Shown: positions 10,638-47,168 of the stretch, one piece after another
How positions within the stretch are numbered: position 1 is the first letter of the stretch
How the letters are laid out: every line of letters starts with the position of its first letter
NCBI RefSeq assembly: GCF_002093625.1
Contig: NZ_MRWD01000031.1
Location: 1 to 60,744, forward strand
Length of the DNA: 60,744 nt
Reading direction: 5' to 3'
DNA from: Rouxiella silvae
GTDB taxonomy: Bacteria; Pseudomonadota; Gammaproteobacteria; Enterobacterales; Enterobacteriaceae
Position numbers and translations under genes: made by a program
The notes under the pieces: model-generated
Databases searched by the model: none
Seen by the model: only the letters and a program-made list of their open reading frames with translations
What the model was told of the DNA's origin: nothing

Positions 10638-10671
10638 TCGGCAGCATGATGTTCTAAGAACACTCTTAAAA

Positions 10672-10704
10672 AATAATCCGCAGTGCCTTTATCTGCGGGT
10701 TATT
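10672..10704. terminator. Hairpin after apbE
   Basis: AATAATCCGCAG (10672-10683) pairs with CTGCGGGTTATT (10693-10704), 12 bp with one G-U pair. The T-run lies on the minus-strand side, so its efficiency on the apbE transcript is doubtful. Confidence 0.5.
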
Positions 10705-17586: not shown

Positions 17587-18699
17587 TTACCATTGTGCGT
17601 GCGATGTAGGGAGTCGATTTTTAAGCGCCACCTGCTCGCGTGCGGAAATTTTTTGACGCGTTAACGGGATCAGTTCACGTCCATATTCCGTGGCGTCGTT
17701 CAGTGGATCAAATCCGCGGATCAGGAATGTTTCGATCCCCAAATCGTAGTATTTCAGCAGTGCATCAGAGACTTGATCCGGCGTGCCGACTAACGCCGTC
17801 GAGTTGTAGCCTCCGCCCACCAGCGCGGCAATGCCGGTCCACAAATTGTCGTCGAGGCGGTCACCCTGTGCCACGGCCAGCTGTAACCGCTGAGCCCCTA
17901 CACTTTGTGGCTTGGGTTTACCTAAACTGAAGGTACTTTGCGCCAGCTGGGCTTTGGTTTGCGCGCGAATAGCTTCGGCCTTTTCCCAGGCCTCGGCCTC
18001 AGTGCGGCCAAGAATAGGGCGAAAGGAGATGCTAAAACCTACCTCTCGCTGATAGCGTGCCGCCTCGGCCTTAACGGCTTTCACCGTTTCAGCCGCGCTT
18101 GCCAGCGGTTCGCCCCACAGAGCAAATACGTCAGCGTGCTTGCCTGCGACACGCATGGCGTCGTCTGACGAACCGCCAAAATAGACTGGCAAATATGCCT
18201 GATAAGGTTTGATGGCGGTAAAAGCGTTTTCAGCCTGATAAAATTCGCCGCGATGGTCGTATCCTTCGCTGGAGTACCAACTTTTTTTCACCACCTGTAA
18301 AAACTCTTCCGTGCGCGCATAGCGGCGAGACTTTTCGAGAAAATCACCGTCGCGACGTTGTTCTGCGTCGCTGCCACCGCTGATAATATGCACCGCCAGG
18401 CGACCGTCGAGCAGGTTATCCAGCGTTGCCAACTTGCGCGCGGCCAAGGTTGGTTCAACAAAGCCGGGGCGATGCGCCAACAAAAATTTAAGGGTAGAGG
18501 TGTGGGCACCCGCATGGGCGGCGACTAAAAAACCGTCTGGCTGATCGGACCAATATCCCACCAGAATCCGGTCAAATCCGGCCTTTTCATGAGCCTTGGC
18601 GAAATCTGCAATGTACTGTTTGTCGAATACCGGTCCGGTGGCAGGAATAATTTCCGAGGATAAACGATGGCCGATCATACCAATGAACTGGACGCTCAT
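17587..18699 (-). CDS. SsuD-like FMNH2-dependent alkanesulfonate monooxygenase
   Basis: A luciferase-like two-component monooxygenase resembling SsuD, which releases sulfite from alkanesulfonates using FMNH2 supplied by a reductase. The 370-residue product shows SsuD-family features: GFDRILVGYW near the N-terminus, LAHRPGFVEPTLAARKLATLD, GRLAVHIISGGSDAEQRRDGDFL, and VYFGGSSDDAMRVAGKHADVF. The start at 18699 has AGGAG eight bases upstream; an earlier GTG at 18708 lacks one. No reductase (SsuE-like) or SsuABC transporter is in the window, so it relies on partners elsewhere. It is divergent from the rhodanese gene. The exact substrate (alkanesulfonate or another organosulfur compound) is inferred from the family only. 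Confidence 0.83.
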   Translation of the reverse strand: MSVQFIGMIGHRLSSEIIPATGPVFDKQYIADFAKAHEKAGFDRILVGYWSDQPDGFLVAAHAGAHTSTLKFLLAHRPGFVEPTLAARKLATLDNLLDGRLAVHIISGGSDAEQRRDGDFLEKSRRYARTEEFLQVVKKSWYSSEGYDHRGEFYQAENAFTAIKPYQAYLPVYFGGSSDDAMRVAGKHADVFALWGEPLASAAETVKAVKAEAARYQREVGFSISFRPILGRTEAEAWEKAEAIRAQTKAQLAQSTFSLGKPKPQSVGAQRLQLAVAQGDRLDDNLWTGIAALVGGGYNSTALVGTPDQVSDALLKYYDLGIETFLIRGFDPLNDATEYGRELIPLTRQKISAREQVALKNRLPTSHAQW

Positions 18700-18895
18700 A
18701 GTTTGCACTCCTGCGGGGTAGAAGCCATCTGAACAACAGACGGCAGGCGTGATTTACCCTAATCAGCCCATCGGACGAAGAGAAATCAATAATTAACATT
18801 TGATTAGCGATAATATGAATTTTGCATCGTTTTCACCGATGCTAGCCTGCGTGTCACTGTGTCAATCCGAGCCTTAGACTTGTGGAGCCTCTTTC

Positions 18896-20215
18896 ATGCC
18901 TGATTCTTTTAATTCTCTCCCTCTGCGCCACACGGCCGACCTTATAAAGGCGCTGCGTAATGGCCAAGAAGTCGCCCTGGTGGACCTGCGTGAAGAGGCT
19001 GATTTCGCCAGCGGGCATCCGCTATTTGCCGTGAATCTGCCGCTTTCTAAGCTTGAAATCGAGGTGTTGGACCGCATTCCGAGTCGCACAACGCCGATTA
19101 CGCTGTATGACAACGGGCAGCGGTACAATCTGCGTACCGATGCGCGCCTGACCGACGTGGCCTATCAACGTCTTAAAGCGCTGGGCTACGTAGATGTCGC
19201 GCTGTTGGCGGGAGATCTTGACGGCTGGCAGGAAGCAGGCGGAGAAGTCTTTATTGGCATTAATGTGCCGAACAAGGCTTTCAAGGCTTGGAGCCAATAC
19301 CGCGGGCAATACCCGTCGGCAGGCGAGCTGTTTGATTCGAAAAGCCTCAATCATGCCACGACTTTGGCCCAGCGCGCCGGCGTGCAAAATATCGATTTGC
19401 CACAGCTTATTCAGTGGCAGGCTGACAGTCAGCGCACGCTGTATCTGTTTGACGTTCGCACGCTTGAGGAATATCAGGCCGGTCATCTGCCGGGTGCGCG
19501 TCATGTCACTGGCGAACAACTGCTGCAACAAACTGAACACTATGCCAGCGTGCGCGGAGCAAGAATTGTGTTGCTTGACGACAACGGGCAGCGTGCAAAT
19601 ATCGTCGCCGCGTGGTTGGCGCAGCAGAACTGGCGCGTATTTGTGCTGGGCTTTGATGCTAAAAATGCTAATGCGGTGAGTGAGCTATTTACCGCAACCG
19701 GCAACGGCAGCGTCACATCAGCCCCCGTACCGGCCATTGAAAGCATTGATGGCGAACGGCTGGAGCAGTGGCTGGCGGAGGGCAACACCGGGATTATCGA
19801 TTTAACACTCAGCGCCAATTTTCGCAACCGGCGTATTCCCAGCGCGGTGTTTACCGCCCGCAGTCAGTTGCCGCAGGCGTTAGCGCAGCAGCCTGCGCAC
19901 AAACGCTGGGTTGTCACCTGCGGCAGCGGGTTTTTAGCCCGTTACGCTGTCACTGAAGTGGCGGAGTTAACCGGTGCGCCTGCCTATTTATTAGACGGCG
20001 GTACGCTGAAGTGGATTGCCGAAGACCGGCCTTTGGAGCACGGCGATTCGCCTTATCTTAATAATCCGCGCGATAAATATCTGCAACCTGAAGAAAACGC
20101 CGATGCCGGACATGAGGCGAAGCGAGGCATTACCGCGTGGGAAGACGGGCTGGTGGCACAGCTTGAGCGTGATAACACCCACGGATTTCACCAGCTAGCC
20201 GTGGATGAGGTGTAG
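18896..20215 (+). CDS. Multi-domain rhodanese-like protein with one cysteine
   Basis: A 439-residue protein with repeated rhodanese folds, related to sulfurtransferases that move sulfane sulfur via a cysteine persulfide. Domains: about 10-115 (VDLREEADFASGHP, loop YDNGQR), about 155-250 (FDVRTLEEYQAGHLPGA, loop LDDNGQR) and about 275-370 (loop TCGSGFLAR). The first two loops carry Asp-Asn in place of the catalytic Cys; the only cysteine of the whole protein is in the third loop. So at most one domain is catalytic, and the others are probably structural or binding modules. Divergent pairing with the SsuD-like gene suggests handling of the released sulfur. It has no signal peptide, so it is cytoplasmic. 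Confidence 0.82.
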   Translation: MPDSFNSLPLRHTADLIKALRNGQEVALVDLREEADFASGHPLFAVNLPLSKLEIEVLDRIPSRTTPITLYDNGQRYNLRTDARLTDVAYQRLKALGYVDVALLAGDLDGWQEAGGEVFIGINVPNKAFKAWSQYRGQYPSAGELFDSKSLNHATTLAQRAGVQNIDLPQLIQWQADSQRTLYLFDVRTLEEYQAGHLPGARHVTGEQLLQQTEHYASVRGARIVLLDDNGQRANIVAAWLAQQNWRVFVLGFDAKNANAVSELFTATGNGSVTSAPVPAIESIDGERLEQWLAEGNTGIIDLTLSANFRNRRIPSAVFTARSQLPQALAQQPAHKRWVVTCGSGFLARYAVTEVAELTGAPAYLLDGGTLKWIAEDRPLEHGDSPYLNNPRDKYLQPEENADAGHEAKRGITAWEDGLVAQLERDNTHGFHQLAVDEV

Positions 20216-35589: not shown

Positions 35590-36285
35590 ATGAGCAATAA
35601 CACTACTACGGCCAAACAACTGGAAGTAAAGCGCATTGTCGATGTACTCTCCAAGGCAATTGCTCAACATCGGCTGCGTCCGGGTTCACGCCTGATTGAG
35701 GCACAAATAGTTGAGGCGTTAAACGCCAACCGTAATCATGTACAGGTTGCTTTGCAGCGCTTGGCGATGCAGCGAATTGTGGATATAGAACCCAATCGCG
35801 GCGCGATGGTGTCGCAACCAACGGCGAAAGAGGCGAGGGAGGTGTTCGTGGCCCGCCGCGCCATTGAACGTGCGATTGTAGAAACGATAACGCCCGAGCT
35901 GATTCGCCGTCATCGTCACCGTATCGCAACCCATCTTCGCAATGAGCGTGAAGCCACTAATGACACCGATCGTCGTGCAATAGTGCGTGAGCTGAGCGAG
36001 TTTCACCTGATGCTGGGTGAAATCTGCGGCAATGAAGTTCTGAGCGAAGTGCTGGCAAACCTGATGGTGCGCAGCTCGCTCATCGTCGCGCTTTATCAGC
36101 GTAACGATGTGCCGTCATGCCAGTCTGACGAACACCAGGCTATTATTACCGCGCTTGAAGCCGGTGATAATGAGCAGGCTGTGGCGGTAATGATTGAGCA
36201 TCTCGAAGAGCTGGAGTCACAGCTTGAGCTTGAAGAGCAGTCAACCAGCGAGGTGAACCTGCGTCAGGCGCTGGCCGATCTCTAA
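35590..36285 (+). CDS. GntR/FCD-family regulator of the amidohydrolase cluster
   Basis: A 231-residue FadR-subfamily (FCD) GntR regulator. The N-terminal winged helix is about 15-80 (RLRPGSRLIEAQIVEALNANRNHVQVALQRL). The all-helical FCD effector domain (about 90-215) carries His residues that usually bind a metal (FHLMLGEICGN; DEHQAIITAL). GAGG precedes ATG 35590. It is convergent with the first amidohydrolase gene, 17 bp apart. The palindrome ATTGCTAGCAAT, repeated at the promoters of the adjacent catabolic genes, is its probable operator (inference); its own promoter lacks the motif. Confidence 0.88.
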   Translation: MSNNTTTAKQLEVKRIVDVLSKAIAQHRLRPGSRLIEAQIVEALNANRNHVQVALQRLAMQRIVDIEPNRGAMVSQPTAKEAREVFVARRAIERAIVETITPELIRRHRHRIATHLRNEREATNDTDRRAIVRELSEFHLMLGEICGNEVLSEVLANLMVRSSLIVALYQRNDVPSCQSDEHQAIITALEAGDNEQAVAVMIEHLEELESQLELEEQSTSEVNLRQALADL

Positions 36286-36302
36286 GCCTCTGTCCGCTGT
36301 GG

Positions 36303-37565
36303 TTAGGCGGCATCATGACCCGATTCTGGGGTGAATATTGTCGCCTCGGGTCGTTCAAAGGTTTTCTTCCCGGCTTTAAATCCCATCAGCGGCGGCGCTA
36401 TTTCAGCCACTACAGCCGCGGCATTCACTGCGTTAAATACCACAAAATCTGCACGGCATCCCGGCGTCAGGCCGTAGTTTTTCAAACGCAACAGGAGAGC
36501 CGACTCGGTTGAAATCCACGCCAGACAACGCAGTAACTCAGCCTCGGTCGCCAACTGACTCACGTTGGCAAAAAGATTGGCCTGCCGCACCAGCGAAGCA
36601 TCGCCGTAGGGAGTGAAAGGATTGGCAATATTGTTGCTCGACAGTGAACAGATCACGCCGCAATTATCGAGACAGGCCAAGGGAGCCAGTCCTCGCGGGC
36701 GATGATGAAAATGATCTCTCCCGGTGAGAAACAGATCCGTTGCAGGCAGTGAAGTGATGCTGACACCCGCCAACGCCATTTGTTTACCGAGCGCCACTAC
36801 TTGCTCGCGCGGCAACGCCGAAAGTTTGGTCACGTGACCGACGGTAACGCGCCCCTGACGCCCAAATTTTTCTGTATATTCAATAACCTTGGGTAGCATC
36901 ATGTTATCGGGGGAGAGGTCAAAATCGAGATGGAAATCAAGATTGCAGTCGTATTCCACCGCCATGTCGAACAGCCGCTCTATTTGCCCCAGCGGCGAGC
37001 TGTCAGTGTAAGGGCAGCCGCCTAACACCTCGGCGCCTTGATCAAGCGCCTGGCGTAACAACGCCTCGGTACCCGGATTATTCAACATACCCTCCTGGGG
37101 GAATACGCAAATCTCCAGCGTTATTGCCCACGCATAGTCTTTCTGCAGTCGCCGCACTGCGTTAAATCCTTGCAGGCCTATTTGCGGGTCCAGCTCGACG
37201 TGCGTGCGCATATGCGTGGTGCCCTGAACAATCGCTTTATCCAACACGCTGGCGCCGCGCTGATAAATATCCTGCTCGGTAAACGCCAACTTTGCCCGGC
37301 GGGTTTGCTCCACCGCCTCATGCACCGTACCTGCGTGCAACTCACAGCGCGACAGAATGCAGGCTTTATCGAGATGGATGTGCGTTTCAACCAGTCCGGG
37401 CAGCAGCAGTTTGCCCTGTAAATCGAGCGTAGCGGCATTTTTTTCTGCCTCAGCAGACAGTTCATCCACAAAGAAACCATTTTCAACCCGCAGGCTGAGT
37501 GGCTTAAGCGGCGAAGTCGGCAGACGGGCATTCACAATTTTCAGTGCTTGGGTGAAATTACGCAT
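36303..37565 (-). CDS. Amidohydrolase, cytosine deaminase-like (first of three)
   Basis: A 420-residue amidohydrolase-superfamily enzyme near CodA/AtzC. The first metal site is THIHLDK (His62, His64). Later barrel histidines are in LDFHLDFD and TVGHVTKL. At the strand-8 position, where CodA has a catalytic Asp (GHDD), this protein reads SSNN followed by NPFTPYGD, a subgroup variation. It is likely cytoplasmic and hydrolyses a C-N bond in a cyclic or amidine substrate; the substrate is unknown. GGAG precedes the ATG and lies at the edge of the double ATTGCTAGCAAT operator, so repression would be direct. Confidence 0.85.
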   Translation of the reverse strand: MRNFTQALKIVNARLPTSPLKPLSLRVENGFFVDELSAEAEKNAATLDLQGKLLLPGLVETHIHLDKACILSRCELHAGTVHEAVEQTRRAKLAFTEQDIYQRGASVLDKAIVQGTTHMRTHVELDPQIGLQGFNAVRRLQKDYAWAITLEICVFPQEGMLNNPGTEALLRQALDQGAEVLGGCPYTDSSPLGQIERLFDMAVEYDCNLDFHLDFDLSPDNMMLPKVIEYTEKFGRQGRVTVGHVTKLSALPREQVVALGKQMALAGVSITSLPATDLFLTGRDHFHHRPRGLAPLACLDNCGVICSLSSNNIANPFTPYGDASLVRQANLFANVSQLATEAELLRCLAWISTESALLLRLKNYGLTPGCRADFVVFNAVNAAAVVAEIAPPLMGFKAGKKTFERPEATIFTPESGHDAA

Positions 37566-37573
37566 TTATTTCT

Positions 37574-37614
37574 CCATATTGCTAGCATTAGCATGTATTT
37601 TGCTAGCAATATGG
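37574..37614. promoter_or_regulatory. Double operator between amidohydrolase 1 and SnoaL genes
   Basis: CCATATTGCTAGCA (37574-37587) and TGCTAGCAATATGG (37601-37614) are exact inverted copies separated by 13 bp. Each contains a near-copy of the 12-bp palindrome ATTGCTAGCAAT (37578-37589 and 37599-37610). The same palindrome recurs at 46569 and 46748. It begins 9 bp upstream of the amidohydrolase ATG and is about 135 bp from the SnoaL gene, so it can serve both divergent promoters. The GntR protein encoded nearby is the likely binder. Confidence 0.8.
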
Positions 37615-37747
37615 ATGCCATCTTGATCAGCGCCGTCGCGACAGGCCCGATGCTGAAAAAGGGCAATTTAATTGCACACTAAGCGTGCGCCCTTGCACCG
37701 CATGGAATCATTGACACGATAGTGGAAACCTCACTGGGAGAAAAAAG

Positions 37748-38146
37748 ATGAAACAGGAAAATAGTGCCGTAGAAATTGTTAGCAATTTTTTGGCGGCGTC
37801 GATGGCGCCGGACCCAGTCAAGGCAGCGACCTACATGGCGGCAGACGTTGTCATTACTTTTACCGGAAAACGCGTGATGCCCGACGCACATCACATCACC
37901 GCGTTTAACAAGGCACGTTATGCCTGGGTGAAGAAGTCTATTGGCCAGTATGACTGGATGGACAAAGGTGATCACACGGTCGTGTATTCGAACGGCACGC
38001 TTTACGGGGAATGGCCGGACGGTCGGAAATTTGCCGGTAATCGTTATCTAGACCGCTATGAAATTCGCGACGGTAAAATCACGCATATGGACGTATGGAA
38101 CGACAGCGCCGAGTGGATATTAGTGCCTGAGATTTCGCAGCGCTAA
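37748..38146 (+). CDS. SnoaL-like (NTF2-fold) protein
   Basis: A 132-residue protein of the SnoaL/NTF2-like fold: VSNFLAASMAPDPVKAATYMAADVVITFTGKRV at the N-terminus, then YGEWPDGRKFAGNRYLDRYEIRDGKITHMDVWND with the typical sheet and conserved Asp/His pocket residues. Such proteins are isomerases, hydrolases or simple binding proteins; the reaction here is unknown. GGGAG precedes the ATG. It is enclosed by genes of the amidohydrolase cluster and shares their divergent operator region, so it probably acts in the same pathway. Confidence 0.78.
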   Translation: MKQENSAVEIVSNFLAASMAPDPVKAATYMAADVVITFTGKRVMPDAHHITAFNKARYAWVKKSIGQYDWMDKGDHTVVYSNGTLYGEWPDGRKFAGNRYLDRYEIRDGKITHMDVWNDSAEWILVPEISQR

Positions 38147-38156
38147 CAGGTATTTT

Positions 38157-38188
38157 GCCGCCTTCACAGAGTAAAAGTCGAAGGCGGC
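38157..38188. terminator. Hairpin between SnoaL and amidohydrolase 3 genes
   Basis: GCCGCCTTC (38157-38165) pairs with GAAGGCGGC (38180-38188), a 9-bp GC-rich stem between convergent genes. No good U-tract on either strand, so termination strength is uncertain. Confidence 0.45.
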
Positions 38189-38198
38189 GGGGGATGAG

Positions 38199-39680
38199 TT
38201 AAGTGCGTGGATTCAGTGGAAACGACGGCGTGAAAAGGCGGCTGCACGGCGGGTGCTGGAAGCTTCTTTCAGGATAAGTGCGCATCAGCTTTTCAAACTG
38301 CCGCTGGGCCTGATAATGAAGCTGGTCAAGGTCAACCCGATGCTTGACTAATTGCCGGTCCCATACCACTTTTTCACCGGCAATAATCACTCCGCGCACG
38401 TCACGACCATTACCGTTGATCACCACCGCCGTAATGGGGTCAAAAATCTGCCCCATCGCCGGTTCGTCTAGCGAAATAATCGTGATATCAGCCTGCGCGC
38501 CCGGGCATAGTCGGCCAATATCCTCACGGCCTAGGGCTTTTGCTCCGCCTAGCGTGGCCATGCGGTAATAGTCGGCGGCGCTGGCAGCCTGCACATTTTG
38601 CGTCACCACCCGGCTTAACACGGTGCCAAGATGCATGTTGGTCAGCATATCCGGTGGGAAAGTGTCGGTGCCTAATCCCATATTCACACCGGCTTCACGC
38701 AGGGGGAGGTACTGCTCAAGATACTTGGCGTGACGACCTGATACCAGCGGACAGAGCACCAGATTGGCGGCTGAGTCGGCCAGCAGCCTGATATCACGCG
38801 TAATACTTGCCTGCGTCGGCGACTTTCCGCCGAGGAATTGACCGTGCGGAAGCAGCATTTTCTTATGCAACAGCCCTGCGTCAGCCAGCACCTGAAGCGA
38901 TGAGCGCCCTTGAAACCGGCGATCAACTTCATTGACTTCAAGCTCACTCTGACAGCAGTGCAGCCGAACGCTGCATTCCTGACGCTGCACCGCTTCGCTC
39001 AGCGCGGCAAGCAGAGCGGGCGTACAGCCTTCGATGCGATCGGGTGCCAAAAAGCCGCGCAGGATTGGAGAATCACGCATCCTGATTTCTTCGATAAAAC
39101 GCTCAGCGTCCTCCAGACCCGCCAGTCCGCGCGCCTCATCAAAACGCATGCCAATTTGGCCGTCGGCTTCAACCACGTTGTGACCCGCCATGAACGCCGG
39201 ACCCAGCCACGCGCGCAGTCCGAGAGACTCCGCCACGTCAGCCGCGTGGCGATATTCGTCGATATCCTCAGCCCATTGTCGATACAAAATGGAGGTGATA
39301 GGGACTGCACTGGTTACCCCATTGAGCAACAGATGGGTATAGGCATACAGCTTGTTAAAATTGAGTTCCTCGCGGGAATAAAGGTCGCGCCGTTGCCAGT
39401 CTGCCGCCACCACGCGGCCCTTTTGCCAGCCGGGCTGATTGTCAAAACCGAGCACGGTGGTATCGAGGTCACCCAGTGCGTCCAAGTCAATAAATCCGGG
39501 GCCAACCAGCGCATTCCCGGCGTTTATCTCCTCATCTACCGCGCCGGTATAACGCTCACCGACAAACAACACTCGCTCGCCCTGATAAACCACTTCTCCC
39601 GGCGAATAGAGCCGATGGTCGTTGTCTTTATATCCCACTACCCAGGTGGCACTGAGGCGGATAATTTTTTGCGCCGCCAT
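38199..39680 (-). CDS. Amidohydrolase with DLD in place of the HxH metal motif (third of three)
   Basis: A 493-residue protein of the chlorohydrolase/SsnA-like amidohydrolase group. Where the family has HxH, it reads GFIDLDALGDLDT, so Asp65 and Asp67 replace the first two histidines. The later sites remain: His in VRLHCCQSE, His in LLPHGQFLGG, and Asp in GLGTDTFPPD. It may use one metal bound by the remaining residues or have a changed reaction. ATG 39680 overlaps the stop of the preceding gene by one base (TGATG), indicating translational coupling. It is the last gene of the ABC-transporter operon. Substrate unknown. Confidence 0.8.
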   Translation of the reverse strand: MAAQKIIRLSATWVVGYKDNDHRLYSPGEVVYQGERVLFVGERYTGAVDEEINAGNALVGPGFIDLDALGDLDTTVLGFDNQPGWQKGRVVAADWQRRDLYSREELNFNKLYAYTHLLLNGVTSAVPITSILYRQWAEDIDEYRHAADVAESLGLRAWLGPAFMAGHNVVEADGQIGMRFDEARGLAGLEDAERFIEEIRMRDSPILRGFLAPDRIEGCTPALLAALSEAVQRQECSVRLHCCQSELEVNEVDRRFQGRSSLQVLADAGLLHKKMLLPHGQFLGGKSPTQASITRDIRLLADSAANLVLCPLVSGRHAKYLEQYLPLREAGVNMGLGTDTFPPDMLTNMHLGTVLSRVVTQNVQAASAADYYRMATLGGAKALGREDIGRLCPGAQADITIISLDEPAMGQIFDPITAVVINGNGRDVRGVIIAGEKVVWDRQLVKHRVDLDQLHYQAQRQFEKLMRTYPERSFQHPPCSRLFTPSFPLNPRT

Positions 39681-40876
39681 CAAAACAGGCACTCACCGTT
39701 GGCCGCTACCACTTTACCGTGCTTGATAACCGTGCGCGGCATCGGTTGGGCGACGATAGCTTCGGCCACCACGCGGGCGGGTAAAAGCACTAAATCGGCG
39801 CGACATCCTACTTCAATGCCATAGTTTTCACGCTTCATCACTCGTGCGCCGCCATAGGTAATAGCGTCTAACGCATTTAGCATTTCGCTGTCTTTACGCC
39901 AGCGGTAACGCAGCCCTACCATCATGGCGCGATGCAGCATGTCACCGTTGCCATAAGGACTCCAGGTGTCGCGTATTCCGTCGTTACCGGCACAAACGTC
40001 AACGCCATGTTCTCGCAGCAACAGGTAAGGCGGCACTGCCACGTCAACCGGCGCGGTGGTGGCGATGGAAATACCCAGCTCTGCAAGCTGTTCGGCAAAC
40101 CATTTTTGCCGGTCTGCTTCGACCATCCCCAAGCAAAATGCGTGACTGATGGTGACCTTACCGCTCAGACCGAATTCGCGGGTTTTATCCAAAATGCGTT
40201 CCACGCTAAACGCACCGACTTCACCACGTTCATGCAAATGAATATCCACGCCTTTATCGTATTTCGCCGCCAGGCGGAAAATAATATTTAAATGTGCGAT
40301 CGGATCTTTCTCATAGGTGCAAGGGTCCAGCCCGCCAATGTAATCAGCTCCTAGGATCAGCGCCTGTTCAAGGTGTTTCTCCGCACCTGGATTTTCCAAA
40401 ATCCCGCTTTGCGGAAATGCCACCGTTTCAATATCAATGGCGTGCGCCAGCTTCTCTTTGGTGGCCAGCACGCCTTCTATATGACTGACGCCGATTTCAT
40501 TATCCACATCAATATGTGTGCGGATAAACGAGGTACCTCGGCTGATGCAGTGTCGCGCAATGCGTTCAGACTGGAGCTGAGAGTCGGGATGATGTTCCCG
40601 ACGATAGGCGCGTTCATTGGCAATAATGGCAGGCAGGTTGCGCGGCACGTCGTTTTCATACCACTCTCGGCCCCACAGGCTTTTATCGATGTGTGCATGG
40701 CCGTCAATAAAACCGGGCAACAGCAGCTGATTATTGCCCTCAATAACCTCGGATTGAGCCACCGCCGCAGAGAGATCGGGTGCAATCTCGACAATTACGC
40801 CGTCGTGAATTAATACGTCCAACGTATTTACGCCAGTAAAAGGACGGACCTGTTTTAAAAGTAATGACGAGCTCAT
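39680..40876 (-). CDS. Amidohydrolase, cytosine deaminase-like (second of three)
   Basis: A 398-residue CodA-like deaminase/amidohydrolase. It has GFIDGHAHIDK (His60, His62), DIHLHERGEVG with metal His and neighbouring Glu, TISHAFCLG, and CAGNDGIRDTWSPYGNGD with the strand-8 Asp, so the full catalytic set is kept. It starts at 40876 with AGGAG seven bases upstream; its ATG overlaps the stop of the ATPase gene (ATGA). Such tight coupling to an importer implies that the imported compound is the substrate, probably an amino- or oxo-substituted heterocycle (inference from family). Confidence 0.87.
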   Translation of the reverse strand: MSSSLLLKQVRPFTGVNTLDVLIHDGVIVEIAPDLSAAVAQSEVIEGNNQLLLPGFIDGHAHIDKSLWGREWYENDVPRNLPAIIANERAYRREHHPDSQLQSERIARHCISRGTSFIRTHIDVDNEIGVSHIEGVLATKEKLAHAIDIETVAFPQSGILENPGAEKHLEQALILGADYIGGLDPCTYEKDPIAHLNIIFRLAAKYDKGVDIHLHERGEVGAFSVERILDKTREFGLSGKVTISHAFCLGMVEADRQKWFAEQLAELGISIATTAPVDVAVPPYLLLREHGVDVCAGNDGIRDTWSPYGNGDMLHRAMMVGLRYRWRKDSEMLNALDAITYGGARVMKRENYGIEVGCRADLVLLPARVVAEAIVAQPMPRTVIKHGKVVAANGECLF

Positions 40877-41958
40877 CGTATTTCTCCTGTGATCGCTTGC
40901 AAAGAAGGGCGCGCCGCGGCGACCGGATGGTGGCATTCGATTTGGTGAAGCGCAGACATGGCGTGGACCGGCGGTGCCGTTAGACGGCAAATGTCAGTCG
41001 CCAGCGGGCAGCGCGGATGAAACGCACAACCGGCGGGCGGCGACAGCGCGCTGGGCATCTCGCCGGAAATTGCGGCCCGCGCCTGATTAGGTTGGTCAAT
41101 TTTGGGAATGGCGTCGAGCAGCATCCGGGTATAAGGATGGCCAGGCTGACGGAAAATTTCATCCACCGGACCCAGCTCGACAATACGGCCGAGATACATC
41201 ACGCCGACGCGGTCAGAAATATGCGCAATGACCGACATATTATGACTGATAAAGAAGTAAGTCAGGCCCAGCGTTTCCTGCAAATCGCTCATCAGATTCA
41301 GAACCTGCGCCTGCACCGATACGTCCAGCGCTGAGGTCGGTTCGTCGCAAATCAAAAAGTCTGGCTGGGTCGCGAGTGCGCGTGCAATCGAAATACGTTG
41401 GCGCTGGCCGCCGGAGAACTCGTGCGGGAATTTAAACATGTCACCCTCCGCCAGTCCGACCTGACGCAGCAGCGTCGCCACCTGACTCCGTGCTTGACGC
41501 GTCGTGCCGACCCGATTTTGCAGGCGCAGCGGTTCAGCAATAATGCGCTCTACGCGCCAGCGTGGATTAAGGCTGGCGTAAGGGTCTTGAAAAATCATCT
41601 GAATCCCACGGCCGGGTGAGGTATCGCCCGGCGTCAGTGTTCGGCCCGCGTGAGAAATTTTTCCCTTGGTGGGTGTGTAAAGTCCTGCCAGCGCACGGGC
41701 AACGGTGGATTTTCCGCAGCCAGATTCGCCGACCAAGCTAAAGGTTTCACCCTGTTGCACACTAAAGCTTATTCCTCTCACCGCTTGGAGTTGTTGTTTC
41801 GGCTGGCGTTTAAACAGGCTGCCCATGCCGCCGCTGCCGACTTCAAAGCTGATATGCAAGTCCTCAACCTGCATAATAGTATGCGCCTGCGGGTTCCGTG
41901 CGCCGGCCTCTTCATTGTCTACAGGGGTCAGTGGAACTGTCTGTTTCATCGTATTCAT
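40873..41958 (-). CDS. Opp/Dpp-type ABC transporter ATPase (DppF/OppF-like)
   Basis: A 361-residue peptide/nickel-family ATPase. Walker A GESGCGKST, the Opp-type FQDPYASLNPR, signature FSGGQRQR, Walker B FLICDEP, and a C-terminal four-cysteine-type oligopeptide motif (GCAFHPRCP ... CRLTAPP ... IECHHP) that probably binds an Fe-S cluster as in DppF/OppF relatives. It starts with AAGGAG upstream. It is fifth gene of the operon, 9 bp after the partner ATPase, and overlaps the next amidohydrolase by 4 bp. Confidence 0.93.
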   Translation of the reverse strand: MNTMKQTVPLTPVDNEEAGARNPQAHTIMQVEDLHISFEVGSGGMGSLFKRQPKQQLQAVRGISFSVQQGETFSLVGESGCGKSTVARALAGLYTPTKGKISHAGRTLTPGDTSPGRGIQMIFQDPYASLNPRWRVERIIAEPLRLQNRVGTTRQARSQVATLLRQVGLAEGDMFKFPHEFSGGQRQRISIARALATQPDFLICDEPTSALDVSVQAQVLNLMSDLQETLGLTYFFISHNMSVIAHISDRVGVMYLGRIVELGPVDEIFRQPGHPYTRMLLDAIPKIDQPNQARAAISGEMPSALSPPAGCAFHPRCPLATDICRLTAPPVHAMSALHQIECHHPVAAARPSLQAITGEIR

Positions 41959-41967
41959 GGTGTCTCC

Positions 41968-42954
41968 TTAAAGATTCAGACAGGCGACGCGCGTCTCGCC
42001 CCGTGTTTGCAGCGTGGGCGAATGCAGACTGCACTGTTCAAGACGCTGCGTGCAGCGCGGATGAAAAGAACAGCCGCTGGGAAGTTGATTAAGCCGCGGC
42101 ATTGAGCCGTCGATTTGCGCCAGACGTGGGCGGCGCTCGGTCAGGCTGGGGATCGAGGCCATCAGCCCGCGCGTGTAGGGATGCCGTGGCTGCTGCAGTA
42201 CCTGTTGTACTGGCCCGGTTTCAATCAGCTGTCCGGCATACATTACCGCCACACGGTCGCAAATTTCGGCGATCACTCCCATATCGTGAGTGATAATCAT
42301 CACCGCCGTGCCGTGCTGTTTGCACAGGCGTTTTATCAATCCGAGCACCTGCGCCTGCACCGAAACGTCCAGGGCAGTAGTCGGTTCGTCGGCGATCACC
42401 AGTTCCGGTTCCACGCACAGCGCCAGTGCGATAATAATGCGTTGGCGCATGCCGCCGGAAAATTGATGAGGATACTGTTCAAGCCGCTGTTCGGCACTGC
42501 TGATACCGACTTCTCCCATTAGTTCAATGGCGCGACTGCGGCTCTGTTCGGCATTCAGCGGCAGGTGAGTGCGAATGGTTTCAATCAGCTGTTCGCCGAT
42601 GGTCAGCACGGGGTTAAGGCTGGTCAACGGGTCTTGGAAAATACAGCTAATTTTTCTGCCCCGCAGCAGGCGTCTTTCCGCTTCGTTAAGATTGTCGATG
42701 CGCTGGCCGTTAAATAATATTTTGCCGCCACTGATGCGGCCGGGGGACTCAAGCAGGCCCGAGATAGCGGAACCGGTAAGTGATTTACCCGCCCCTGACT
42801 CGCCAACGACGCCAAGAATTTCACCGGCGTTGAGTGAAAAAGAGACATCGCGGATCGCCAGCAGAGCGCCTTTACGGTGCATAAACTCAACGCTGAGTCC
42901 TTCGACCTCCAGTAACGGAGCCTGAGGAGGGCAAGAAAGCGGGCTGCTGTTCAT
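41968..42954 (-). CDS. Opp/Dpp-type ABC transporter ATPase (DppD/OppD-like)
   Basis: A 328-residue partner ATPase. Walker A GESGAGKSLT, FQDPLTSLNPVLTIGEQ, signature FSGGMRQR, Walker B LVIADEP, and a C-terminal CSFHPRCTQRLEQC Fe-S-like motif typical of the D/F ATPase pair. AGGAG precedes the ATG. It lies 9 bp downstream of the OppC-like permease gene. With the F-type ATPase it powers import through the two permeases. Confidence 0.93.
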   Translation of the reverse strand: MNSSPLSCPPQAPLLEVEGLSVEFMHRKGALLAIRDVSFSLNAGEILGVVGESGAGKSLTGSAISGLLESPGRISGGKILFNGQRIDNLNEAERRLLRGRKISCIFQDPLTSLNPVLTIGEQLIETIRTHLPLNAEQSRSRAIELMGEVGISSAEQRLEQYPHQFSGGMRQRIIIALALCVEPELVIADEPTTALDVSVQAQVLGLIKRLCKQHGTAVMIITHDMGVIAEICDRVAVMYAGQLIETGPVQQVLQQPRHPYTRGLMASIPSLTERRPRLAQIDGSMPRLNQLPSGCSFHPRCTQRLEQCSLHSPTLQTRGETRVACLNL

Positions 42955-42963
42955 GGTCTTCTC

Positions 42964-43947
42964 CTAACGTAATTTAGGGTTGAGAATATCCCGCAGCCAG
43001 TCGCCGAGGATGTTAAATGCCAGTGACAATGTCACTAATACCAAGGCGGGAAACAGCACCACCCACCACTGGCCGGAAAACAGATACTGATTGCCTTCAT
43101 TGATAAGCGTGCCCAGCGACGGCTGGTCTGGCGGCATGCCTACGCCAAGAAACGACAGGGTCGCTTCGGTGAGGATAGCCAGGCCAAGATGCAGCGTCGC
43201 CAACACGGAAACCGGACTCAGCACGTTAGGCAGAATATGGGCAAACATAATGTGCAGGCTACGGCCCCCGCTAACTTTGGAGGCCAGCACATACTCTTTA
43301 TGCTTTTCGAGGATCGTTAGGCTGCGGATTGTGCGGGCGTACTGCATCCAGCCGGTCAAGGCAATAGAGGCGACGATAATCGGCATCGCCATTTCCCCCT
43401 GTAGCGCCTTGGGCAAAATACCGCGCGCCACGCCGCTTATCAGCAGCGAAAACATAATCGTTGGAATGCTCAGCATGGCGTCAGCGAAGCGCATAATCAC
43501 CGTATCGACCAGCCCGCCGAGATAGCCACTCAACACCCCAAGCAGCACGCCGATCAGCAGAGAAAGCCCCACGCTGATTAAGCCGACAATCAGTGAAATA
43601 TGCAGTCCATAAAGCATCAGCGACAGCAGGTCACGCCCCTGAACGTCGGTGCCGAGCCAGAAGTGCGCATCACCCCCGGTTAACCAAGAAGGCGGAAGCT
43701 CCGAGTTCATCAGGTCAAAGCTTGAGGCGTCGAAAATTGAATAGGGCGCTAGCCAGCCGCTGAAAATACCGGAAATTAACAGCGCTACGGTCCAAAAGAA
43801 GGCCATAACGGTGATTTTTGATTTCCAAAAGTAGTAGAGGAAATCGCTGTCTATAAAAGCGGTCAGGTTTTGTTTAATTAACTGCAACCGGGTGGGCGCA
43901 GCGACTGCGTTAAATTCAGCGGGTTGCCGGGAGTCTTGATTCATCAT
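42964..43947 (-). CDS. Opp/Dpp-type ABC transporter permease (DppC/OppC-like)
   Basis: A 327-residue inner-membrane permease with about six helices and the longer N-terminal cytoplasmic extension of the C-type subunit. LGTDVQGRDLLSLMLYG near 98 and the EAA loop YVLASKVSGGRSLHIMFAHILPNV near 220 are family marks. Starts with tandem Met codons (MMNQD). It lies between the B-type permease (11 bp) and the D-type ATPase (9 bp). Confidence 0.93.
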   Translation of the reverse strand: MMNQDSRQPAEFNAVAAPTRLQLIKQNLTAFIDSDFLYYFWKSKITVMAFFWTVALLISGIFSGWLAPYSIFDASSFDLMNSELPPSWLTGGDAHFWLGTDVQGRDLLSLMLYGLHISLIVGLISVGLSLLIGVLLGVLSGYLGGLVDTVIMRFADAMLSIPTIMFSLLISGVARGILPKALQGEMAMPIIVASIALTGWMQYARTIRSLTILEKHKEYVLASKVSGGRSLHIMFAHILPNVLSPVSVLATLHLGLAILTEATLSFLGVGMPPDQPSLGTLINEGNQYLFSGQWWVVLFPALVLVTLSLAFNILGDWLRDILNPKLR

Positions 43948-43958
43948 AGTTGTCTCAC

Positions 43959-44924
43959 TCAGGACTTTTTCATACGCGGGTCAATCAGGTAATAAAGCAG
44001 ATCGACCAAGGTATTAATGACAATGAAAATTAATGCGATAAATATCAGGTAAGCCGAAATAACCGGAATATCGACATTATTAATCGCCTGAATAAAAAGC
44101 AGTCCCATGCCCGGCCATTGGAATACAGTCTCAGTGACAATCGCAAAAGCAATTAGACCACCAATTTGTAATCCCACAATCGTTACCACCGGTAATAACG
44201 CGTTACGCAGAGCATGGCGATAATAGATGCTCGCCTTATGCAGGCCGCGCGCTTTGGCGAACTTAATATAGTCTGTGCGCATAACCTCCAGCATTTCCGA
44301 GCGCACCAAACGCATAATCAGCGTTATCATAAACAGCGAAAGAGAGAGCGCAGGCAGCACAATGGATTTCCATCCGCTCACGCTGAGCAGTCCGGTGCTC
44401 CACAGGCCAAAATGGGTCGTTACGCCACGTCCGCTAGAGGGGAAAATTCCTAGATAAACCGAGAAGACAATAATCAGCAAAATACCAATCAGGAAGCTGG
44501 GCAGCGAGACGCCTATCAATGATAAAAATTGCACTAATCCCAGCAGCAATCGGTTTTTACTTATCGCCGACCACACTCCGAGCGGGAATCCCACCAGCAA
44601 TGAGATAACCACAGCCACCAACACCAGCTCCAGCGTGGCGGGAAGACGCTCCATAATTAAATGAAAAACGTCTACCTGGTTGTAATAGGAAATACCAAAG
44701 TCGCCGTGGCAAATGCGCACCACAAAGCGCGCAAACTGGGTCAGCATAGGGTCGCTGAGGCCTAATTTGATGCGCAAATCGGTGCGCTCCTGCTGCGTTG
44801 CGCTTTCCGGTAGCATGTTATTGACTGGGTCACCCAAATACTGAAACATGCTGAATGAAATAAACGCCACCGCCAGCATCAGGCCAATCATTTGCAACAG
44901 CCGTTTAATGATATAACTCACCAT
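43959..44924 (-). CDS. Opp/Dpp-type ABC transporter permease (DppB/OppB-like)
   Basis: A 321-residue B-type permease: MVSYIIKRLLQMIGLMLAVAFISF at the start, ISYYNQVDVFHLIMERLPATLELVLVAV, and the EAA loop YIKFAKARGLHKASIYYRHALRNALLPV near 215, ending in the typical LIDPRMKKS. It follows the binding-protein gene after 18 bp. Together with the C-type subunit it forms the membrane channel of the importer. Confidence 0.93.
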   Translation of the reverse strand: MVSYIIKRLLQMIGLMLAVAFISFSMFQYLGDPVNNMLPESATQQERTDLRIKLGLSDPMLTQFARFVVRICHGDFGISYYNQVDVFHLIMERLPATLELVLVAVVISLLVGFPLGVWSAISKNRLLLGLVQFLSLIGVSLPSFLIGILLIIVFSVYLGIFPSSGRGVTTHFGLWSTGLLSVSGWKSIVLPALSLSLFMITLIMRLVRSEMLEVMRTDYIKFAKARGLHKASIYYRHALRNALLPVVTIVGLQIGGLIAFAIVTETVFQWPGMGLLFIQAINNVDIPVISAYLIFIALIFIVINTLVDLLYYLIDPRMKKS

Positions 44925-44942
44925 TGTGCGCTCTCTCTGTTG

Positions 44943-46523
44943 TTAATTAGCATTGACCCGGGCATACCACAGGCGCACGACGTTATCGGGACTCTGCTTG
45001 AGGGTCAGGTTTTTATTTTCAACCCAGACAACCGGTTCATAGTGCATCGGCATATAAGGCAAGTCGGCTTGGGCGAGGTTTATTTCCTGGCGCAGCATGT
45101 CGGTGCGTTTTTTGTCGTCAAGTTCTGGAATAGAGGCCTCAATGAGCTGGTCAACCTGCTGGTTGGAATAACGCGGAATATTAAACATCCCAAAGCCGCT
45201 ATTATCATTTGTGTGCAGCAACTGCACAGAGATACTGTAGGCATCCATAATAGGCAGGTTAGCCCAGCCTAAAACCGCAATATCCGTTTTTCCATTGTCG
45301 GTTATCTGGTTATAAACACTGTTGGTGTGCATCGTCAGAGTGGCCGTTACGCCTATTTTGGCCCAATAACTTTGGACTGCCTGACACCACTGAGGGGCGT
45401 TCATATAGGAGCCTTCCACGCAGTCAAAAGCCAGCTTGAAGCCTTTTTCATAACCCGCCTCCGCCAGCAGCGCTTTGGCTTTTACGGGGTCGTATCCCAA
45501 CTTTATTGCATTGGCCGTGTCATAACCCGGGATTTGCGGGGCGAGGTAGGTGTTGGCCACCTGCGTCATGCCGCGCATGATTTTTTGCGTGATAGCTTCA
45601 CGGTTCACCGCCATCATCAACGCTTGCCGCACGCGTAAATCTTTGAGGGGATTCTTACCCTCTACGTTGCCGGCGTTGAGGGTGTCGCGTAGGTTAAAGG
45701 TAAGGAAATCAACGCGAAGCGAGGGGCTTACTAACGTTTGAATCGTAGTGTCTTTGCGCAATCTGTCGATATCTTGCAGCGGCACACTGGTCACCAAGTC
45801 GTATTCTTTCGCCAAAATACCCGACAGGCGCGTTGCATCAGAGGTGATAGGTTTGAAGATTATTTGGTCCACGTTGCCAACCGAGTTGTCTTTATTCCAC
45901 CAGGTCGGATTCTTCTTTAATACCATTTGCGATTCCCGCTGGCGGCTCACCAACATAAACGGCCCGGTGCCGTTGGTATTATTGGTGGCATAGCCTTCGG
46001 TGCCCTGGCTCATGCTGGTCGGTTTGAGGGCGTTATGCTGCTCCATCCACTCTTTGTCCATCATCATCACGCCGCTGAGTTCGTTAAGCGCAATGCCGCT
46101 TTTTTGCTTGAGATGAATATCCACAGTGTATTGATCCACCGCCACCGCATCTTTAATCGTGGATGCGTTAGCGCGTATTCCTGAGTCCGGGTCGGTGACG
46201 CGCGCAATGGAAGCCACCACGTCGGCGGAGTCAAAAACGTCGCCGTTTTGGAATTTCACTCCCTGACGCAGATAAAAACGCAGCGTGGTGTCATTGATAA
46301 ATTCCCAACGCGTAGCCAGCGTGGGCTGAAGCTTCAAATCGTTATCGCGTTGAAGCAGGGCCTCATAAATGTGATTTTGAAAGGTCAGCGCGGTGGTGGA
46401 GGCAAAGGCATCAGGGTCAAGCGTAGGAATATCGGCGGCAACCGCCCAGCGAACTATATTCTCGGCTTCAGCGGCCTGAGTCGCCATGCAGGTCAGTAAA
46501 AGCGGCAGCACGTACTTTTTCAT
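44943..46523 (-). CDS. Opp/Dpp-family periplasmic binding protein (SBP_bac_5)
   Basis: A 526-residue cluster-C substrate-binding protein. Signal peptide MKKYVLPLLLTCMATQAAEA, then VRWAVAADIPTLDPDAFASTTALTFQNHIYEALL and the family motif RFYLRQGVKFQNGDVFDSADVVASI. ATG 46523 has AAGGA upstream and is preferred to a reading 27 codons longer. Relatives bind peptides, nickel, glutathione, opines or heme; the ligand here is unknown. First gene of a seven-gene operon ending in two amidohydrolases. A perfect ATTGCTAGCAAT lies 46-57 bp upstream of the ATG, just above a TAAAAT -10 candidate (46560-46555). Confidence 0.93.
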   Translation of the reverse strand: MKKYVLPLLLTCMATQAAEAENIVRWAVAADIPTLDPDAFASTTALTFQNHIYEALLQRDNDLKLQPTLATRWEFINDTTLRFYLRQGVKFQNGDVFDSADVVASIARVTDPDSGIRANASTIKDAVAVDQYTVDIHLKQKSGIALNELSGVMMMDKEWMEQHNALKPTSMSQGTEGYATNNTNGTGPFMLVSRQRESQMVLKKNPTWWNKDNSVGNVDQIIFKPITSDATRLSGILAKEYDLVTSVPLQDIDRLRKDTTIQTLVSPSLRVDFLTFNLRDTLNAGNVEGKNPLKDLRVRQALMMAVNREAITQKIMRGMTQVANTYLAPQIPGYDTANAIKLGYDPVKAKALLAEAGYEKGFKLAFDCVEGSYMNAPQWCQAVQSYWAKIGVTATLTMHTNSVYNQITDNGKTDIAVLGWANLPIMDAYSISVQLLHTNDNSGFGMFNIPRYSNQQVDQLIEASIPELDDKKRTDMLRQEINLAQADLPYMPMHYEPVVWVENKNLTLKQSPDNVVRLWYARVNAN

Positions 46524-46568
46524 CCGATCTTCCTTCACACAATGGTAGGGGGTGATTTTACTAGCCAC

Positions 46569-46580
46569 ATTGCTAGCAAT
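46569..46580. promoter_or_regulatory. Operator ATTGCTAGCAAT, promoter-proximal
   Basis: A perfect 12-bp palindrome 46-57 bp upstream of the binding-protein ATG. With TAAAAT (46560-46555) as -10, it would cover the spacer/-35 region of the minus-strand promoter, fitting repression. A degenerate third copy (CATTGCTAGATG) lies at 46668-46679. Confidence 0.78.
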
Positions 46581-46747
46581 TATTAAAAGCAACCATCGTG
46601 CCAAGCAAGTTGTAAAATGAAAATAATCTTCTTTTCGAGTTATTTCAAAGAGTAATCAGAGGTGAGCCATTGCTAGATGACCAGCGGTGGTGGGGGGGAA
46701 GTGGTGTTTGCGCACGTAATGGGCAACTCTGCATTGCCGTGGTGCAG

Positions 46748-46759
46748 ATTGCTAGCAAT
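46748..46759. promoter_or_regulatory. Operator ATTGCTAGCAAT, distal
   Basis: A second perfect copy of the palindrome, 179 bp from the first and about 225 bp upstream of the binding-protein gene. Distance and repetition would allow DNA looping by a GntR dimer pair (inference). It lies 4 bp from the emrE-like terminator. Confidence 0.72.
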
Positions 46760-46762
46760 GAA

Positions 46763-46838: not shown

Positions 46839-47168
46839 TTAATGTCCCGCGGTTTTCGACAGCAGATTAATCATTAATACGCCGGCGATAATCAGCACCA
46901 TACCGCCGATGGCATAGGCATCGAGCTTTTGCCCGAAGAATATAAAACCGGCGCAGGCAACCAACACAATGCCCATTCCAGCCCAAATGGCGTAGGCGAT
47001 ACCTACCGGCATTGATTTCAAAACCAACGATAACAGAATGAAAGAGATGATGTAGCCCACAACCACCGCCACGGAAGGATAGAAACGGGTAAAGCCTTCA
47101 GAAGCTTTTAAAGAGCTGGTGGCAATAACTTCAGAGATAATGGCAATAAAAAGATAAATGTAGGTCAT
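46839..47168 (-). CDS. SMR-family multidrug efflux transporter (EmrE-like)
   Basis: A 109-residue, four-helix small multidrug resistance protein close to EmrE. The membrane-embedded carboxylate is in IISEVIATSSLKASEGFTR (Glu in position 13, equivalent to Glu14 of EmrE); GIAYAIWAGMGIVLVACAGFIFFGQKLD and AGVLMINLLSKTAGH match EmrE closely. It exports cationic drugs or quaternary amines by proton antiport. It has its own terminator and an extended -10 candidate upstream, so it appears monocistronic and separate from the amidohydrolase system. Confidence 0.93.
   Translation of the reverse strand: MTYIYLFIAIISEVIATSSLKASEGFTRFYPSVAVVVGYIISFILLSLVLKSMPVGIAYAIWAGMGIVLVACAGFIFFGQKLDAYAIGGMVLIIAGVLMINLLSKTAGH

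Follow-up and report, generated by a model that had tools for sequence, protein, structure and literature searches.

A predicted GntR-controlled regulon for the uptake and hydrolysis of a nitrogen-rich, probably cyclic compound in Rouxiella silvae

What compound would a bacterium take up and dismantle with an oligopeptide-type importer whose genes overlap those of amidohydrolases? The question is raised by a cluster of ten genes at positions 35590-46523 of the window, namely the whole stretch of 60,744 nucleotides of Rouxiella silvae DNA analyzed here (NZ_MRWD01000031.1, contig C53 of a 5.28 Mb genome). The cluster encodes a GntR/FCD regulator, a cytosine deaminase-like amidohydrolase hereafter abbreviated as AH1, a small SnoaL-fold protein, an AtzB-like protein, an AtzC-like amidohydrolase and an Opp/Dpp-type (family 5) importer that is complete according to Pfam, with an SBP_bac_5 binding protein, two permeases and two oligo_HPY-tailed ATPases. 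The reading frames are all open and lie where the initial annotation had placed them; its picture of a five-gene importer coupled by overlaps to two amidohydrolases, with a third amidohydrolase, a SnoaL protein and the regulator alongside, is borne out by the gene positions, the Pfam and NCBIfam matches and the overlaps of the AtzC-like gene with the upstream ATPase gene (4 bp) and with the AtzB-like gene (1 bp). The binding-protein gene starts at the ATG at 46523, although the listed TTG frame extends to 46604. We propose, with moderate confidence, that this cluster forms the core of a newly recognized regulon, predicted from sequence to be controlled by the GntR/FCD protein and to serve the uptake and hydrolysis of a cyclic nitrogen-rich compound.

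The regulon was recognized from a 12-mer palindrome, ATTGCTAGCAAT, which occurs as 20 exact sites in eight cluster-bearing genomes or records: three each in the window's genome (G000), G003, G004 and G005, and two each in Raoultella (G420), Klebsiella (G421), G267 and a Pantoea plasmid record (W01). All 20 sites lie at the cluster locus or, in the window's genus, ahead of one distant amidase gene; about 0.3 sites would be expected by chance in the window's genome, and the reversed pattern used as control is found once in the same eight genomes and records. The two members of the genus without the cluster have none and one of these sites, respectively. The site ahead of the binding-protein gene is present also in loci L050, L008, L051, L005, L006, L032 and L052, and the two importer-side operators of the window are separated by 179 bp, a spacing that is retained in L050, L008 and L051. 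Of the two sites that each of Raoultella, Klebsiella and Pantoea has, one precedes the genes for a PuuE-like protein and SnoaL and the other the binding-protein gene. The palindrome thus appears to be kept at the presumed target promoters across genera, as is required of GntR/FCD regulators with a palindromic operator.

The GntR/FCD protein of the cluster is the candidate repressor for these sites. Its helix motif, ANRNHVQxALQRxA, is common to the window and nine operator-bearing loci, and a variant form (ANRNHxRxAL) is found in the operator-bearing L053, L056 and L058 as well as in the operator-poor L055 and L057. Other regulators compared, from operator-free loci, have a different helix, except that of L007, which shows the same motif on a contig that is cut. 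Loci L053-L059 had at first been taken as operator-free controls, but L053, L056 and L058 proved to carry exact or one-mismatch sites ahead of binding-protein or AtzC-like genes; the remaining 45 of the 52 loci in this comparison have no site, and L059 has a single, intragenic one. In two further genomes, G688 and G115, regulators with 75% and 56% identity to the GntR protein of the window lie beside operator-like sites (0-1 mismatch), which precede SnoaL/importer genes and a gene of the gamma-glutamyltransferase (GGT) family. An exact operator is also found ahead of an AstE/AspA hydrolase-family gene in L053 (11609-12736), a further candidate member of the regulon. Another operator word, in contig C42 of the window's genome, was dismissed as a chance occurrence because it is not flanked by A/T and falls, as judged by eye, within a transporter gene.

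The distant member of the regulon is an amidase (P0008, contig C21 of the window's genome) that lies far from the cluster, behind a ATTGCTAGCAAT operator and, by eye in two loci, in the neighborhood of pncC and recA. Pfam shows the Amidase domain alone, no cut-off is passed among the 25 NCBIfam models shown, and among solved structures the amidase is closest to chains of aryl acylamidase and GatA. An ortholog with at least 88% identity is present in exactly four of the six genus genomes analyzed, the four that have the cluster; of the cluster-free members, G001 gives no hit at E 1e-60 and the hit in G002 is of 33%.

The importer, AtzC-like, AtzB-like and GntR genes are found together in Raoultella terrigena, Klebsiella spallanzanii, Pantoea, other Enterobacterales and several Alphaproteobacteria, and because of this recurrence their grouping cannot be considered fortuitous. 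In Qingshengfaniella and other Alphaproteobacteria the block has no SnoaL gene in the stretch, and L040 and L042 show no GntR match. The permeases and ATPases do score best on models for oligopeptide, dipeptide and nickel transport, without reaching any cut-off, as they would if an ordinary peptide or nickel importer happened to lie beside unrelated hydrolases; given the stop/start overlaps, the shared operators and the recurrence in both Alpha- and Gammaproteobacteria, we regard such an arrangement as very improbable. At E 1e-60, nine genomes out of 394 from the order and nine out of 398 from the phylum have the AtzB-like protein; a scan with this protein retrieved 27 loci in genome contigs and 357 plasmid records, 176 of which have at least 80% query coverage. 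The co-occurrence of importer and hydrolases on which the initial annotation had staked its proposal is therefore found in other genomes. In the synteny that it proposed to look for, of the binding protein, both permeases and all three hydrolases, AH1 is the exception, which in the loci examined shares a cluster with the AtzB-like protein only in the window's genus. Five enterobacterial loci (L005, L006, L007, L032 and L052, from Raoultella, Klebsiella, an Erwinia metagenome-assembled genome and Pantoea) have in the place of AH1 a different amidohydrolase, with canonical ligands in all five rows; the Pantoea protein (L032) is the sole one of the five to be named by family, passing PRK06846 with 536 bits versus a cut-off of 447.

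AtzB and AtzC perform lower steps of atrazine breakdown, and in the window, too, a member of the one amidohydrolase group lies next to a member of the other, together with an Opp importer and a GntR gene that the atrazine set does not include. The AtzC-like protein belongs to NCBIfam PRK05985 (503 bits vs. a cut-off of 408) and is closer to 6nbo, a structure named after AtzC (E 3e-110, 372 bits), than to AtzC itself (2qt3, E 2e-60, 209 bits). Its residues H60, H62, Q156, H213, H215, H245 and D299 are near-invariant (at least 97% in 43 rows), so that the canonical ligands are kept; the alignment to 2qt3 and these columns show that the metal ligands of AtzC are present together with the active-site His/Trp positions of that enzyme. 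The AtzB-like protein belongs to PRK06151 (662 bits vs. 416) and has an unusual site. The HxH metal motif on strand 1, the mark of AtzB and of chlorohydrolase-deaminase enzymes, is missing and its place is occupied by DLDALGDLD (PGFIDLDALGDLD). This DxDA..DxD pattern is present in all AtzB-like rows listed and in 24 of 24 alignment rows, in which D65, D67, D71, D73, H241, H279 and D339 are invariant, as are R239, Q244 and E248. (Duplicates were excluded from the alignments, namely L002-L004 for AtzB-like proteins and L001, L003 and L004 for AH1, and L057 was left out of that for AtzC-like proteins.) Other traits of the AtzB and chlorohydrolase-deaminase enzymes are retained: the His residues of strands 5 and 6 (H241, H279), the Asp of strand 8 (D339) and the amidohydrolase fold. 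The predicted structure, which has a mean predicted local distance difference test (pLDDT) score of 87.9 with residues 75-83 below 50, falls in the group of adenosine/guanine deaminases and chlorohydrolases and matches adenosine deaminases and AtzA.

The absence of HxH from every listed member of the AtzB-like family, combined with the presence of the AtzC-like gene immediately ahead of it in 43 of 45 cases, could signify that the AtzB-like protein is a non-enzyme partner subunit that retains its fold and is complexed with the AtzC-like protein. (The count of 45 excludes the window and L001-L004, and the 43 include L057, whose AtzC-like match has 137 residues; the exceptions are a second copy in L056 and L007, where the record ends.) However, the invariance of H241, H279, D339, R239, Q244, E248, D67, D71 and D73 gives the look of a site that has been kept and rebuilt, and the second copy in L056 stands without an AtzC-like gene behind its own exact operator, so we think it unlikely that the protein is a mere partner. 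This second copy (17700-19229) has 41% identity; in L057 the AtzC-like match beside the AtzB-like gene is a short piece (10267-10677) with no importer homologue beside it in the stretch. A bolder possibility, which we hold to be improbable at present, is that a two-protein enzyme is built from an AtzB-like (PRK06151) and an AtzC-like (PRK05985) component, with DxDA..DxD in place of HxH, and that together with an AH1 having Asn for catalytic Asp it would perform carbon-nitrogen chemistry new to the amidohydrolase superfamily on a natural, ancestral counterpart of the s-triazines or on an oxidized nucleobase.

AH1 can be aligned to CodA along nearly its full length, with a template-modeling score of ~0.82, but in the phmmer alignment it has Asn311 and Asn312 where CodA has Asp313 and Asp314, and Phe215 where CodA has Glu217. 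H62, H64, Q157, H212 and H244 are kept without the last Asp ligand, while N311 and N312 are invariant in 21 of 21 alignment rows and F215 nearly so. None of the 16 NCBIfam models matched is passed, and those for cytosine deaminase give 174 vs. 403, 172 vs. 438 and 153 vs. 483 bits. In the structure model the strand-8 loop 311-324 and residues 276-284 are under pLDDT 50; model confidence is thus low around the sites of both AH1 and the AtzB-like protein, and for this reason their chemistry cannot be read from the models. The initial annotation had suggested that the importer brings in a nitrogen-rich compound that is deaminated or deamidated stepwise. That importer and hydrolases go together is supported by their co-occurrence and shared operator, while the class of substrate is conjectural; a simple stepwise deamination by three enzymes is not established, because the full set of canonical metal ligands is retained in the AtzC-like protein alone.

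The SnoaL protein (P0004, 132 residues) scores 25.2 bits with Pfam SnoaL_2, slightly below the cut-off of 27, and matches the solved chain 9mua ('Tautomerase') with E 3e-22, covering residues 67-179 of its 186 and lacking its N-terminal part. It is linked to AH1: among 398 genomes of the phylum, AH1 matches above 350 bits (out of 54 at E 1e-40) were found in 20, including that of the window, and SnoaL matches at E 1e-15 in 27, and the two genes lie within 10 kb of each other in 16 of the 20 (hypergeometric probability ~4e-18, with relatedness ignored). The pair is accompanied in G688 and G115 by an importer, a regulator and the GGT-family gene, which remains below the GGT cut-off; the binding protein of G688 resembles urea and branched-chain types, again below cut-off. 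Elsewhere, a SnoaL homologue of 63-64% identity lies between yiiM (MOSC-domain) and cpx genes beside sodA in two Salmonella plasmid records (L033, 15001-15396; L047, 9001-9396), and Sulfitobacter pontiacus (L036, 11803-12369) has a SnoaL protein with an N-terminal extension, annotated as a member of the tautomerase family, whose gene shares a run with those for hydantoinase A/B, an isochorismatase and an isocitrate lyase-family protein.

A single run of genes in contig C127 of G522 (L140, 1247-12836) joins an importer, AH1 and an AtzC-like protein to two BiuH-like proteins of the isochorismatase family, an allophanate hydrolase and a GGT-family protein, without SnoaL. The allophanate hydrolase is above its cut-off and the BiuH-like proteins are below theirs (267 and 101 vs. 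370). This run ties AH1 and AtzC-like proteins to the chemistry of urea condensates, and is the best lead to the class of substrate. It could also be taken, with the match of the AtzC-like protein to AtzC, the presence of the cluster in Raoultella terrigena (a melamine degrader) and the proximity, in Polaromonas, of a SnoaL homologue to a gene annotated as ring-opening amidohydrolase, as a sign of s-triazine-like catabolism, in which the AtzB-like and AtzC-like proteins would strip amines from a triazine and the ring would then proceed via biuret and allophanate. The AtzB-like protein without HxH, the low scores of the BiuH-like proteins and the amidase of the window's genome, which has no C-terminal domain of allophanate hydrolase, speak against this route, which we consider quite improbable. 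The family of cyanuric acid hydrolase and barbiturase (PF09663) has no match in seven genomes including that of the window, but none in 14 control genomes either, so that its absence is not shown. Triuret and biuret degradation involves trtA, biuH, trtB and atzF, according to PMC12625717; G522 resembles this pathway in its isochorismatase-family and allophanate hydrolase genes, whereas the window's locus has neither.

The closest parallel in the same genome is a cluster of hpx type in contig C128 (L141, 4725-15447), comprising a GGT-family protein, HpxX, an AtzE-family amidase, HpxZ, PuuE and, by eye, a probable racemase; HpxX, the AtzE-family protein, HpxZ and PuuE pass the cut-offs of their models. 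In such systems hpxW encodes oxamate amidohydrolase and hpxY oxalurate amidohydrolase, as stated in PMC12625717. Similar kinds of proteins (PuuE-like, small NTF2/SnoaL-type, amidase-signature and GGT-family) recur in the regulon, and of the proteins encoded by the window's genome it is the hpx GGT that the GGT-family protein of G688 matches best (38%). SnoaL homologues, moreover, lie near annotated hydantoinase/dihydropyrimidinase genes in Polaromonas, Aureimonas and Sulfitobacter SK012, the last also with carbamoylase and racemase, and an annotated allantoinase AllB is adjacent in a Sinorhizobium meliloti relative. These similarities would fit a catabolism of oxidized purines or hydantoin-type ureides parallel to hpx, in which a cyclic guanidine or amino-hydantoin loses its amines, the ring is opened by the PuuE-like protein or AH1 and the ureide is trimmed by the amidase or a GGT-like protein. 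The proteins themselves, however, fail the models: with an hhalign probability of 0.5% SnoaL is no HpxZ, the amidase (30% identity; 248 vs. 461 bits) does not belong to AtzE/HpxY, and the PuuE-like protein of Raoultella is far below the PuuE cut-off (91 vs. 425 bits). By eye, the hpx cluster contains neither AtzB/AtzC-like genes nor an Opp importer. Such a parallel route is conceivable but, in our opinion, rather doubtful. Since the regulon has the protein kinds of hpx without having hpx proteins, we read it as a system that takes up a cyclic nitrogen-rich compound and dismantles it by hydrolysis; by analogy, our best reading is that it may work like the catabolism of allantoin/oxalurate or of s-triazine/biuret and, by the tests made, belongs to neither. 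Like the initial annotation, we recognize no standard pathway in it; that annotation missed the distant amidase and a candidate ring opener, the PuuE-like protein lying behind the same operator in Raoultella, Klebsiella and Pantoea.

Several observations weigh against a regulon dedicated to such a compound. The shorter word TTGCTAGCAA, exact at 37600, 46570 and 46749 of the window and with one mismatch at 37579, 37776 (within the SnoaL frame) and 20371, is weak when taken alone, with five copies in the genome vs. four for the reversed control; allowing one mismatch, the six copies in the window compare with 3.0 expected and are reached in eight of 100 shuffles. No operator site lies ahead of the window's own gntR, the exact word falls within coding genes in L059 (the binding-protein gene) and in the cluster-free G002 (its single site, inside an open frame), and L054, L055 and L057 have no site within one mismatch despite their AtzC/AtzB genes. 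Promoter-like sites number two near the importer start vs. 0.5 expected, and none was found near AH1. The binding protein reaches the cut-off of none of the 11 NCBIfam models it matches, and a homologue of it is in the stretch at 19 of 44 AtzB-like loci, leaving 25 without, among them 22 Pseudomonas loci; one of these, L016, has a different ABC importer, polyamine-type by eye. Two of the three amidohydrolases deviate from the canonical ligands and could differ catalytically or be dead, and no amidohydrolase is annotated near the SnoaL gene beside yiiM in the two Salmonella records.

With these reservations, we favor the following scheme for the regulon. The GntR/FCD protein, probably a repressor released by an inducer, would bind the operators before the importer operon, between the AH1 and SnoaL genes and before the amidase gene. 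The Opp-type importer would take up a small nitrogen-rich, probably cyclic compound, from which the AtzC-like protein might remove an exocyclic amine or a similar C-N group, with the AtzB-like protein performing a neighboring step at its putatively rebuilt metal site. The ring, or its opened product, may then be cut by SnoaL together with AH1 in the window's genus or with the PuuE-like protein in Raoultella, Klebsiella and Pantoea, and further by the amidase, presumably yielding ammonia for use as a nitrogen source; the order of these steps is likewise conjectural. The features of the locus are collected in table 1.

Table 1. Genes and predicted operator sites of the cluster in the window
Feature	Position	Strand	Basis or remark
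GntR/FCD regulator	35590..36285	+	Pfam GntR + FCD
AH1, cytosine-deaminase-like amidohydrolase	36303..37565	-	phmmer alignment to CodA
Predicted operator copy ATTGCTAGCATT	37578..37589		1 mismatch; 13 bp upstream of AH1; kept in L050, L008, L051
Predicted operator copy TTTGCTAGCAAT	37599..37610		between divergent AH1 and SnoaL genes
SnoaL-fold (NTF2-like) protein	37748..38146	+	Pfam SnoaL_2; 9mua match
AtzB-like protein	38199..39680	-	NCBIfam PRK06151
AtzC-like amidohydrolase	39680..40876	-	NCBIfam PRK05985
Opp/Dpp-type ATPase	40873..41958	-	Pfam ABC_tran + oligo_HPY
Opp/Dpp-type ATPase	41968..42954	-	Pfam ABC_tran + oligo_HPY
Opp/Dpp-type permease (C)	42964..43947	-	Pfam BPD_transp_1
Opp/Dpp-type permease (B)	43959..44924	-	Pfam BPD_transp_1 + N-terminal domain
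Family 5 solute-binding protein	44943..46523	-	Pfam SBP_bac_5, E 1e-83
Predicted operator ATTGCTAGCAAT	46569..46580		46 bp upstream of binding-protein gene
Second predicted operator ATTGCTAGCAAT	46748..46759		225 bp upstream of binding-protein gene

Beyond the distal operator, at a distance of ~80 bp, lies a small multidrug resistance (SMR) gene of Qac/EmrE type (46839-47168), which is below every curated cut-off shown. In the corresponding position just past the operators, Serratia sp. M24T3 (L008, 762-2886) has, by eye, a UbiX/UbiD-like pair. The SMR gene was considered as a guanidinium exporter of the set and then discarded, because the Qac/EmrE models are the nearest and SugE scores lower, all under cut-off, and because the UbiX/UbiD-like pair replaces it in L008.

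The suggestion of the initial annotation that the cluster may be undescribed agrees with the open-access literature (most subscription journals lying outside it), in which we found no description of the cluster, of a link of SnoaL to tautomerase or to the transportome, of the PRK06151, PRK05985 and PRK06846 families or of the regulon combination, and nothing on this cluster in connection with Raoultella terrigena, melamine or ammelide; the sole paper found for 9mua/9mup is unrelated by title. What had been a vague catabolic cluster becomes a regulon predicted from sequence, for which an operator is named and to which a hidden, distant gene is added. It includes two recurring amidohydrolase families with apparently rebuilt metal sites, for which the annotations of chlorohydrolase and cytosine deaminase-like protein are not justified by sequence. 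The substrate, if found, could reveal the origin of enzymes that operate in pollutant-degrading pathways.

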